From NCBI RefSeq assembly GCF_963665675.1, contig NZ_OY762426.1, positions 1,736,001 through 1,800,000 on the forward strand: a DNA stretch of 64,000 nucleotides, read 5' to 3'. Both the position numbers and the translations under genes were made by a program. The stretch is from an uncultured Methanolobus sp. (GTDB lineage: Archaea > Halobacteriota > Methanosarcinia > Methanosarcinales > Methanosarcinaceae). Positions 34,656 through 60,522 of the stretch are shown here, one piece after another (position 1 is the stretch's first letter; each line of letters starts with the position of its first letter). Below the pieces are notes generated by a model. It was given only the letters and a program-made list of their open reading frames with translations, searched no databases and was not told where the DNA came from.

Positions 34656-35327
34656 TCAATCAAATGTTGCAGGGATGGTTTTCAGTCCCTCTTCTATTTT
34701 TTCCAGCATACCATATGCAATTCCGACCGGGACTTCCTCATTAGCATAACCGCTGTGTTTTCTCGAACCCTTGCATCCGTAGGAAACACCAATCCCATCT
34801 TTCAGCACCCTTGCAGTACAATCTCCGCATATGGATGCCGCACCAATTGATCTTGAAGTAATTCCCTCTCCAAAATGAAACGCATATGCCTGAATAATCT
34901 TCATGGCACTTTCAGGTTTCAGGTAAAGCAAAAGAACATCGAATTTGCCGCTATTTTTCCCATGAGGCTCCATTTTTATTGACCTGTACTCCCTTTCAAT
35001 CCTCGGAAGCGACTCAACAGTCTTCTGTGCAGTCTCTTCGTCTTTGTAGCGATTGGATTTCAGGTAATAGTTTGCCGGACTGTTCTCACTAACACCAAGT
35101 ATGAATTTTCCAGGTCTGCATCTCTGGTCTTCTATCAGGAAAGATTCCCCGTTTCGTGCCAGATGAACGAGTTCACAATAAAGCATCTCTGAATTCTCTC
35201 CTTCCTCCTCACAAAGAGAAATGCACACCGGCTCACCTTCCTCCATGAGTGCCTCAATGTTCGGGTAGCTTTGATAACTTTGATGATTTGGATAATCAGG
35301 ATAATTTGAATCTCTGCATGGGTTCAT
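34656..35327 (-). CDS. DUF169 family protein
   Basis: This protein of about 223 residues matches the DUF169 (COG2043) family: PVCISLCEEE, CELVHLAR, DQRCRPGKFILGV and the GAASICGDCTARVLKDG region. Several conserved cysteines suggest metal or Fe-S binding. Starting at ATG 35327 puts the gene just after the endonuclease V stop, whereas the frame is open upstream to 35393 inside that gene. Residues 8-25 are a low-complexity Tyr/Pro/Ser stretch (SNYPDYPNHQSYQSYPN). Function unknown. Confidence 0.75.
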   Translation of the reverse strand: MNPCRDSNYPDYPNHQSYQSYPNIEALMEEGEPVCISLCEEEGENSEMLYCELVHLARNGESFLIEDQRCRPGKFILGVSENSPANYYLKSNRYKDEETAQKTVESLPRIEREYRSIKMEPHGKNSGKFDVLLLYLKPESAMKIIQAYAFHFGEGITSRSIGAASICGDCTARVLKDGIGVSYGCKGSRKHSGYANEEVPVGIAYGMLEKIEEGLKTIPATFD

Positions 35328-35714
35328 AATTTCAATCCCTGTCTTCGTGTTCAAGAATCTCTTTCTTAGCTTCTGCCGCATACATATGTGCAAGTCTTGT
35401 AGGTTCAGGAAGTTTATACCCTTTAAGGCAGTGTTTTACGATCTCAAGAGAGCTATCAACTGAAACTTTGTGCCCGGGTGCTATAATGATAGGGTTGCTG
35501 CGTTTATTACTTTTCAGAAGCCAGCCAACATGATCATCTTTATACCTCAGCTTTTGTGATTCTCCAACTTCAACAGGCGTCTCAGAATCACCACAAAGGA
35601 CTTTCTTGGAAACTCCAACTGTGGGAATATCCATTACTGCTCCAAAATAAGTTGCCATCCCTGCTTTGATCGGATGGTTGATGCCGCAGGAATCAAAGAC
35701 TATAATGTCCGGCT

Positions 35715-35722
35715 TATTCTTA
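35715..35722. repeat. Target-site duplication, left copy (MITE-A)
   Basis: TATTCTTA, identical to 36134-36141, immediately borders the element. Confidence 0.88.
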
Positions 35723-36133
35723 TAGGGTCCTTTAGAACTGACACTCAAATAAAGGGAGTACATGCCTTATTTTTCATTGCAAATATGCTGTAAGTGCTCC
35801 CCCACAAAAAGTACATTTTTAAAGCTGCTTAATTTTCAAAATAAAGGCTATTTATGTTTTAATTTGAAAATAAAGTGTCAATTTCCCCTATATTCATTCC
35901 ATATTATAAGTTTTATAAGACCGTCTAGTGATTGCGTTTTCATAAAAACAAAAAAGTATGGGAATAAAGGGCTATTAACCTTTTAATGCCATAATGATTC
36001 ATTATTATGGTACAATTTATTAAATAAACGAATTAGATGATGTACTTTAGTTAGGGGAGTTTAAATAAATACTAATATAAAGAAAATAGGGATTTTTCTA
36101 ACTGGAAATGAATGTCATTTTGAAAGGGGCATA
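35723..36133. mobile_element. 411-bp MITE-like element, copy A, inside endonuclease V
   Basis: The element begins TAGGGTCCTTTAGAACTGAC and ends with the imperfect inverse ATGTCATTTTGAAAGGGGCATA; about 19 of the first 28 positions match between the ends. It is bordered by the 8-bp duplication TATTCTTA. The interior is AT-rich and carries no transposase; a 74-codon frame inside it (35762-35986) is also open in copy B but resembles no protein I know. It is about 97% identical to 60112-60522 (12 differences by eye). An 8-bp duplication fits several insertion-sequence families, and I cannot name the mobilising transposase. Confidence 0.9.
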
Positions 36134-36141
36134 TATTCTTA
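36134..36141. repeat. Target-site duplication, right copy (MITE-A)
   Basis: TATTCTTA, the second copy of the 8-bp duplication, inside the endonuclease V codons for KN. Confidence 0.88.
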
Positions 36142-36441
36142 AGTTTCATAAAAACAGATGCAATGGCTTTTCCTTCCCTGAAGTTCAGGTACGTTGGAAT
36201 ATACGGAAAAGCAATCTTTTGTACGATGTATTTCTTTTCAATAATTTCAAGGGTATTGTAGTCCAGAACAGGCATGGCACAGACGATTTTATCATCAAAA
36301 TATGCGCAGTCCACACCTGCTATCCTTTCTATCTTTCCAAAACCATCATCAAGACTTAACTTCTCAATGGCCTTTTTCTGGAGGACTCGCAGTTCCTCCA
36401 GTGTGCGTGAAGAGGGATCGAACCAGTAATCCAGTTCGCTA

Positions 36442-38061
36442 TTATTCAATAGTTGCCCTCACAGTAGTGAACACAGGTCCACGGATGTCAATTTTCTTCT
36501 TGTTGCTTGTGATGAAGCGCTGTGCCAGCGGTTCAAGGCGGAAGTTTATCTCTGAAGGGACCTTCACGATCCTGACTCTTGTCTCAACTTCGCTCTCGCC
36601 GTTTGCAATGGCACTCTCTATATCCTTTGCAGCCTGGCAGGCAAATGCGTCAAGGAATCTTACACCAGTTCTTGCTGAATGGTTCTCAAGTGCCTTTCTC
36701 CACTTCTTGTTGTCAGGCACACCCAGAATATCATTGTTGTATGCAACAACTTCATTGAACACAGCAGGTCCACAGAGTTTTGTTTCCTCTTCAGGTTCAA
36801 TAACTGAGACCTTCACGGCCTTTCCGTTGACCGTACCTTCCCATGCAGGGAACTCACACGGACTTGGAGTTGATCCATGTTCCTCACATACAGCCACAAT
36901 AGCCTTTACAATATCCATGCCCTCAGGGGTCTCAGGGACATTTACAATATGGACATTCTTTGCAAGCTCATTGTCAGTCATCTTCCACTCAGAATACTGA
37001 GTTATCTGTGGGTATGTGAGTGAACGGATATCAGTTGCATCGTGGAGTATCATTGCAAGCCTTTCTACGCCAAGTCCCAGATTCATCACAGGATATGGTA
37101 TATCATACTGAGAGAGGGCAGTTGGTGAGTAGATTCCAAAGGTTGCTATCTCTATCCAGCCGTCAGAATATTTTGTGTTAGAACCAACCAGGTTTGGATG
37201 GTATGCGAAAACTTCTATCTGAGTGTCAGGTACGTAGTACTTGCTGCGCTTGTCATCAGCTCTAAACATAAACTTCTCAAAACCGAACTGTGAAAGTAAT
37301 CCCTGTGCAACTGCTTTTCCGTGGTCGATGCTTACATTCTCATCCATCATCACACAGGATGCAGAGTAGTAGGTCATAAGACGTGCCGCATCTTCATCCT
37401 GCTCCCTTCTGAAGCAGCGGTCAATTGAGAAAAAGTTGAAAGGTGGGTTTGCACGCTCGATTACAGATGCAAGACTGATGAACCATCCTGAAGTCATATG
37501 GCTTCTGAGTGTCTTCTTGGTTGCCTGTGGAATAAGTTCCTTAAATTCCGGGAAGACCTGATCGATCATCTCAACAACGAGTGAGTCTGAGACATTGATG
37601 CTGGCTGCGATCTCAGGCACAAGGTCATCTCCTTCAACATCTCCCTTCTTGTATGAATGAAGAACTTTCCTGATAGATTCAATAGCTTCATCATCAACTC
37701 CTCCGAGTATCTCCTTTATCTCAGCAATACGCTCGTCTGAGATACCTACATTTGGACGTGGGAGTCCTGCAAGATAGAAGCACCTGTCAAGGACAGCCAG
37801 TGCTTCATGACTGAATTGCTTGTGGACCTCTCTTTCATCAACAATGAGTGGGTTCATCATTTCCTCAAATCCCATTCTCATGTATGCATCACGGAGCTTT
37901 GAGATAGTGTCATAAACCGGGTGTGGTTTGCCGTATTTGATGGTCATGTGTGGGTACTGGTCATTCAGCTTTGACTCGCTGATGTAATCCTTACCCTTAT
38001 TCCATGCAGCATCAAAATCCTCGCTTGCTGCTTTTTTAATATCATCAGGGTTAAATTTCAT
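36442..38061 (-). CDS. sepS: O-phosphoseryl-tRNA(Cys) synthetase SepRS
   Basis: SepRS charges tRNA-Cys with O-phosphoserine, which SepCysS then converts to cysteine. This is the indirect route to Cys-tRNA used by many methanogens. The 539-residue class II synthetase begins with FNPDDIKKAASEDFDAAWNKG. It has motif 2-like FNFFSIDRCFRREQDEDA, the SepRS-specific stretch TLRSHMTSGWFISLASV, and the class II motif 3 NLGLGVERLAMIL. The C-terminal part after about 400 is the anticodon-binding region. Its length is normal. The substrate tRNA-Cys(GCA) is encoded at 12360-12431, but SepCysS is not in the window. Confidence 0.95.
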   Translation of the reverse strand: MKFNPDDIKKAASEDFDAAWNKGKDYISESKLNDQYPHMTIKYGKPHPVYDTISKLRDAYMRMGFEEMMNPLIVDEREVHKQFSHEALAVLDRCFYLAGLPRPNVGISDERIAEIKEILGGVDDEAIESIRKVLHSYKKGDVEGDDLVPEIAASINVSDSLVVEMIDQVFPEFKELIPQATKKTLRSHMTSGWFISLASVIERANPPFNFFSIDRCFRREQDEDAARLMTYYSASCVMMDENVSIDHGKAVAQGLLSQFGFEKFMFRADDKRSKYYVPDTQIEVFAYHPNLVGSNTKYSDGWIEIATFGIYSPTALSQYDIPYPVMNLGLGVERLAMILHDATDIRSLTYPQITQYSEWKMTDNELAKNVHIVNVPETPEGMDIVKAIVAVCEEHGSTPSPCEFPAWEGTVNGKAVKVSVIEPEEETKLCGPAVFNEVVAYNNDILGVPDNKKWRKALENHSARTGVRFLDAFACQAAKDIESAIANGESEVETRVRIVKVPSEINFRLEPLAQRFITSNKKKIDIRGPVFTTVRATIE

Positions 38062-60111: not shown

Positions 60112-60522
60112 TAGGGTCCTTTAGAACTGACACTCAAATAAAGGGAGTACATGCCTTATTTTTCATTGCAAATATGCTGTAAGTGCTCCCCCACAAAAAG
60201 TACATTTTTAAAGCTGCTTAATTTTCAAAATAAAGGCTATTTATATTTTAATTTGAAAATAAAGTATCAATTTCCCCTAAATTCATTCCATATTATAAGT
60301 TTTATAAGACCGTCTATTGATTGCGTTTTCATAAAAACAAAAAAGTATGGGAATAAAGGGCTATTAAACTGTTAATGCCATAATGATTCATTATTATAGT
60401 ACAATTTATTAAATAAACGGATTAGATGATGTACTTTAGTTAGGGGAGTTTAAATAAATACTAATATAAAGAAAATAAGGATTTTTATAACTGGAAATGA
60501 ATGTCATTTTGAAAGAGGCCTA
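60112..60522. mobile_element. 411-bp MITE-like element, copy B
   Basis: It has the same ends and the same length as copy A at 35723-36133, with TAGGGTCC at the left and GAAAGAGGCCTA at the right. It is bordered by its own 8-bp duplication TAAAGCAT. About 12 base differences separate it from copy A. It sits directly behind the HEAT-repeat gene and would not disrupt it. Confidence 0.9.

Follow-up and report, generated by a model that had tools for sequence, protein, structure and literature searches.

This locus raises the question of how the endonuclease V (EndoV) gene nfi of an uncultured Methanolobus sp. came to lie in two pieces, and what this means for inosine repair in the strain. All positions refer to the window, which is the whole stretch of 64,000 nucleotides that was analysed. 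We hold, with a probability of roughly 0.9, that a MITE belonging to an insertion sequence (IS) family of the Methanosarcinaceae was inserted by the transposase of a full-length relative into the single nfi gene and most likely inactivated it.

The interrupted nfi gene

The nfi gene was found to be cut in two by a 411-bp element at 35723-36133, with TATTCTTA on both sides. Features of the locus, and the second copy of the element in the window, are as follows.

34656..35330, minus strand: DUF169 gene, downstream of nfi (Pfam PF02596)
35332..35714, minus strand: C-terminal part of nfi (PF04493, 130 bits, profile positions 85-197; from the open reading frame list)
35715..35722: target-site duplication copy 2, TATTCTTA, identical to copy 1
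35723..36133: 411-bp MITE-like element with imperfect terminal inverted repeats TAGGGTCCTTT.../TATGCCCCTTT... (multi-copy, sharp ends, target-site duplications)
35799..35815: left subterminal box CCCCCACAAAAAGTACA, element positions 77-93 (from alignments)
36134..36141: target-site duplication copy 1, TATTCTTA, identical to copy 2
36142..36449, minus strand: N-terminal part of nfi with a TTG start (PF04493, 65 bits, profile positions 5-86; start and overlap read from the sequence)
36442..38061, minus strand: O-phosphoseryl-tRNA synthetase (SepRS) gene, upstream of nfi (Pfam SepRS_C)
60112..60522: second full-length copy of the element, target-site duplication TAAAGCAT

Joining the flanks with one TATTCTTA gave a single open frame of 232 codons, encoding a 232-aa EndoV that reads ...FMKLKNKPDIIVFD... 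across the junction. A sequence-only reading of this DNA had described a 411-bp insertion with an 8-bp duplication splitting an EndoV gene, and had stated that removal of the element and one duplication restores the frame. Both statements were confirmed, the former by the two repeats and the multi-copy nature of the element, the latter by computation. The PF04493 profile spans of the two pieces adjoin. Profile coverage and the motifs AGVD, FRE and FDSCG/FDGQG were aligned across both pieces, and the reading frame is interrupted by the element in between. Both pieces were free of stops and frameshifts, kept the conserved motifs and aligned to adjoining parts of the solved EndoV chains 2w35 and 4xpu. 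The break lies near residue 100 of 2w35 and separates AGVD and FRE from FDSCG. These motifs hold the catalytic acids, which we take to be D43, E89 and D110 (T. maritima numbering). All three acids are found together in neither piece, the first two being separated from the third by the element; with an incomplete active site in each piece, the gene is most likely inactive. Absence of EndoV activity in this strain would be expected from the sequence.

The first 8 bases of nfi, its TTG start included, lie within the end of SepRS (36442-36449). The 25 relative loci searched had SepRS next to nfi in 24 cases and the DUF169 gene in 15 (E up to 1e-10), counts that are not independent, as the flanks were limited and some named loci probably duplicate other genomes. 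Since the nfi start lies within the SepRS end and the two genes adjoin in nearly all of these loci, a single operon of SepRS and nfi is suggested.

Six named relatives were retrieved with the C-terminal part, five of them Methanolobus. Relatives were sought in 27 Methanolobus genomes, this one included, with EndoV counted at a match of at least 195 bits. In all 18 relatives the gene runs through the site with no insertion and no indel relative to the joined protein (for one of them, L059, part of the N-terminus was missing from the extracted frame). An empty site, such as the sequence-only reading had proposed to look for in related strains, was present in each of these related genomes, and the closest EndoV protein was 92% identical to the joined one. 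Of the other 26 genomes in the genus, eight lacked an intact EndoV (1 broken, 2 sub-threshold, 5 with no match), one genome among these being only 70% complete. In genome G019 (locus L065) the EndoV gene was found in two frames, either an independent loss or an assembly error. A profile search of the own genome for another nfi, also raised earlier, yielded no second EndoV, the only other match reaching 13.3 bits at a cut-off of 23.4 bits. For EndoV, the M. acetivorans control genome had no match at E 0.001 and a weak one at E 10, a threshold at which matches appeared in 8 control genomes, 6 of them above the cut-off.

The element family and its candidate mobiliser

The own genome (3.5 Mb, two contigs), in which the window spans positions 1736001-1800000 of contig C2, was found to contain nine full-length copies of the element including the one in nfi, one split copy and one diverged copy. 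The nine full-length copies are 410-411 bp long, the eight others being 93-97% identical to the nfi copy, and the diverged copy, found via its ends, measures 409 bp with 62% identity to the consensus. Of the 11 copies, seven have target-site duplications of 8 bp, one has 7 bp, one has 9 bp and two have no perfect duplication. As the same element recurs in the genome with perfect duplications in 9 of 11 copies, chance is excluded. The split copy (L034:1023-3042 = G000:C2:1191622-1193641) contains a 1601-bp insertion with its own 8-bp duplication AAATTCAT; this insertion is IS66-like. When the flanks were joined, nfi and the copy on contig C1 were the only sites crossed by frames of at least 100 codons. 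At two other copies the frames across the site have 73-86 codons and may be due to chance, and the empty site of the copy at 60112-60522 had no frame of 60 codons across it. The copy at L102:2210-2620 (G000:C1:113709-114119), on the smaller contig, sits in the frame of a PAS-domain protein.

The assignment as a MITE was made on several observations. The element is short and without a transposase of its own (411 bp, with a 74-aa frame lacking a Pfam match), it is present in multiple copies, and it carries a target-site duplication of fixed length (8 bp in 7 of 11 copies). Terminal inverted repeats TAGGGTCCTTT/TAGGCCCCTTT were found across the family, with 60 of 105 positions identical between the two consensus ends versus a shuffle maximum of 46. 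In the nfi copy the second terminal repeat TATGCCCCTTT is altered from TAGG (TAGG to TATG).

Related elements of 401-414 bp were found in two other genera of the Methanosarcinaceae. Both copies in genome G067 (genus g11) are 401 bp long, and one of them is flanked by a perfect 8-bp duplication. Among 12 loci measured in genus g13, six were 414 bp long with 8-bp target-site duplications, one was 341 bp long and five had no duplication pair; two of the six 414-bp loci came from L216-L219, chosen for ends about 412 bp apart, so that the agreement in length is partly by choice. Locus L215, which lacks a duplication pair, adjoins a transposase fragment and may be an IS end. With one locus of the own genus, 13 loci were measured in all, 6 of them without a duplication pair. 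A DNA search of the other 26 Methanolobus genomes found no near-complete relative, with an 85-bp partial match in genome G025. Five matches of the end pattern in other Methanolobus genomes were discarded, none having a second end in its locus to complete an element; two of them lie in the same conserved gene, and one locus has no 100-codon frame over the match. Six end-pattern matches in viral contigs proved to be one and the same stretch and not an element end. In plasmid records, the element query had a single match (43 bases, E 0.4), and with the transposase described below as query a single Methanosphaera plasmid record, in two versions, matched at 29%.

A profile of the left 110 bp of the element was searched over 185 genomes of the order, 29 of which matched at E up to 0.01. 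This search led to a 1256-bp IS in the own genome with ends TAGGG[TC]CCT (TAGGGTCCT) and target-site duplications of 8-9 bp. Ten IS loci were scanned with a narrow end pattern, under which 6 of the 10 were without a complete end pair (4 with the left end only, 2 with neither); the remaining 4 had both ends and a duplication, all being 1256 bp long, and 2 of them are whole copies in this genome. The transposase belongs to DDE_Tnp_1 (PF01609; two transposases tested scored 75 and 81 bits). At 1e-30 or below, transposase matches were found in 22 of the 185 genomes, five matches lying in the own genome, two of these whole and open. No NCBIfam IS family was assigned to the mobiliser (best score 39.8 versus a 115-bit cut-off); an ISfinder name may exist for the IS or the MITE. 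The IS copy at L207:813-3333 (G000:C2:2219712-2222232) is broken by another transposase gene.

The box CCCC..AAAAGTACA was located at positions 76-93 from the ends in both element and IS, the offset agreeing within 1 bp, and the subterminal box CCCCCACAAAAAGTACA of the left side of the element is common to both IS ends. Over the terminal 105 bp, ungapped, element and IS shared 40-49 identities; four of eight end pairs exceeded all 2000 shuffles and four did not. The interior of the element is unrelated to the two IS copies compared, with matches restricted to the ends and the box (BLAST gave short chance-level matches). The element's interior is not a deletion product of these two copies, and the parent may be another relative. 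From the shared ends and box we infer that the element is mobilised by the 1256-bp IS or one closely related to it. A full-length relative would supply the transposase acting on the element's ends, the element would insert into the single nfi gene with duplication of 8 bp (TATTCTTA), and this insertion would part the first two catalytic acids from the third, most likely leaving the gene inactive.

A transposase fragment next to the partial element match in G025 (L097) was initially taken as the mobiliser. Relatives of this fragment occur widely in the genus, in 24 of 27 genomes. It was dropped, because no inward-facing pair of element ends was found around transposases of this type in 30 loci with up to 5 mismatches.

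The interior of the element was also analysed. A conserved central core, seen by eye, was rejected, as its best interior block was reached by 4966 of 5000 column shuffles in a test that used 7 of 11 aligned rows, near-duplicates being dropped. The element folds better than 100 of 100 shuffles (z -3.63). The consensus fold of 11 aligned relatives contains paired terminal repeats, paired subterminal boxes and three short hairpins. In this structure 91.9% of cells were paired and 27 cells were changed on both sides, values that none of 500 shuffles and no slid version reached, with the structure favoured by its derivation from the same alignment. Within the short interior hairpins (alignment columns 29-54, 134-151 and 152-219) some pairs were changed on both sides across the relatives. 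The long-helix signal would also be expected from inverted repeats kept for the transposase, an account that does not extend to the small hairpins.

Age of the insertion and alternative explanations

The nfi copy differs from the element consensus at 13 positions, 7 of which are private, including the terminal TAGG to TATG change. In the other nine copies compared, private changes ranged from 2 to 14, with only one copy above 7. We read this as an insertion late on this lineage, with the nfi copy not the youngest of its family. The term "recent" used in the sequence-only reading holds only loosely, given that one end is mutated and that the 411 bp carry 7 private substitutions, a higher number than in 8 of the 9 other copies compared. 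That reading had also taken the lack of other damage as a sign of recency. The pieces do lack stops and frameshifts, but by our estimate so few changes would often leave both of them stop-free anyway, and their intactness is therefore weak evidence of recency. Relaxed selection on the broken gene was not demonstrated. Over 232 codons, its private changes were 7 nonsynonymous and 21 synonymous, versus 5 and 49 in three sisters together (p = 0.10); in a comparison of seven genomes the values were 3 and 6 versus 10 and 37 in the others (p = 0.42). The excess of changes was not significant in either case.

Several other explanations were weighed against the insertion and inactivation of a working gene. 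Among these, prior decay of nfi as a redundant gene, before the element arrived, deserves most attention and is nevertheless unlikely. It agrees with the 8 of 26 other genomes without an intact EndoV, with the presence of the EndoQ family in 27 of 27 genomes and with the slightly higher number of amino-acid changes in the own gene than in its sisters; this excess, however, did not reach significance, and pieces without stop or frameshift that retain the conserved motifs speak against earlier decay. The two pieces might alternatively be made separately and reassemble as a split EndoV, the element providing the start. A 143-aa product reading through the junction into the C-terminal part could start at an ATG within the element (35763), and both pieces are open. 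Yet only a short, closely spaced purine-rich stretch lies ahead of this ATG, the N-terminal frame continues to 36072 within the element and adds 20 foreign residues to the first piece before its stop, and with 7 private changes in the element the pieces are plausibly intact without selection. We give a functional split enzyme very little credence.

Equally slight is the probability that the element acts as a reversible DNA-repair switch, whose precise excision in part of the population would yield cells with and without EndoV, a thought raised by the perfect duplication, the stop-free pieces and the whole candidate transposase copies in the same genome. Least probable of all, to the point of being nearly dismissed, is removal of the element at the RNA level in the manner of an intron or IStron, with normal EndoV being made. 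Exact removal together with one repeat does restore the frame, but any target duplication would have this effect. The fold beyond all 100 shuffles and the covariation beyond 500 shuffles and the slid controls fit an RNA; the best-paired long helices, however, are the terminal repeats and subterminal boxes, which DNA ends recognised by a transposase also keep. No Rfam match, to an intron model or otherwise, was obtained at E up to 1 in 35300-36500. Moreover, one of the 10 other copies spans a frame of at least 100 codons and two span the frames of 73-86 codons, and with so few frames spanned most copies would have nothing to splice.

Inosine repair and comparison with known systems

The sequence-only reading had suggested that the cell may lack inosine repair by this enzyme. 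This is fair for EndoV itself; an intact EndoQ gene is, however, present. The EndoQ gene of the own genome is an open frame of 412 codons, its protein matches the solved chain PfuEndoQ 5zb8 at 2e-119, and its family, TIGR00375, was detected in all 27 Methanolobus genomes. According to published work, Methanosarcina acetivorans has an EndoQ that cleaves deoxyinosine DNA (PMC6202378), and archaeal enzymes of this kind recognise uracil and hypoxanthine (PMC5045986). That inosine repair is lost altogether is unlikely, given this intact EndoQ gene and the 8 of 26 other genomes without an intact EndoV. Judged from gene content, EndoQ would cover deoxyinosine repair here. Loss of EndoV is likely tolerated, since EndoQ is present, the M. 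acetivorans enzyme cuts deoxyinosine DNA, and the genome of that organism had at most a weak EndoV match. The event is a genuine and ordinary MITE insertion, a case of genome turnover in a repair gene dispensable to the genus. It provides a clean natural EndoV knock-out in a methanogen, useful for asking if EndoQ alone handles deoxyinosine in archaea. The MITE family common to three genera of the Methanosarcinaceae, together with its likely mobiliser, is of added value.

Compared with known EndoV (Nfi; chains 2w35 and 4xpu), both pieces align, whereas the gene here is split by the element. The candidate mobiliser shares PF01609, TAGGGTCCT ends and target-site duplications of 8-9 bp with DDE_Tnp_1 insertion sequences, of the IS4/IS5 superfamily, but falls well short of the cut-off for each NCBIfam IS family listed. 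In the freely readable literature on MITEs and insertion sequences in Methanosarcina, Methanolobus or archaea, no paper was found whose listing describes this family. Passages of a review on prokaryotic MITEs name Sulfolobus, Halobacterium, Haloquadratum, a Desulfurococcales species and "several other archaeal genomes"; the Methanosarcinaceae are not among the archaea named in these passages (PMC10969869). As described there, prokaryotic MITEs are short and multi-copy, with terminal inverted repeats, target-site duplications and no transposase found, and the present family agrees in each of these points (PMC10969869). The Chunjie MITE of Geobacter uraniireducens, of which one copy disrupts a phosphate uptake operon and the others lie between genes, resembles it further in that copies are mostly outside large frames with one copy breaking a gene (PMC10969869). 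In comparison to the MITEs treated in those passages, the family described here differs by its larger size (401-414 bp in most copies measured), its 8-bp target-site duplications, its subterminal box and its occurrence in methanogens (PMC10969869).
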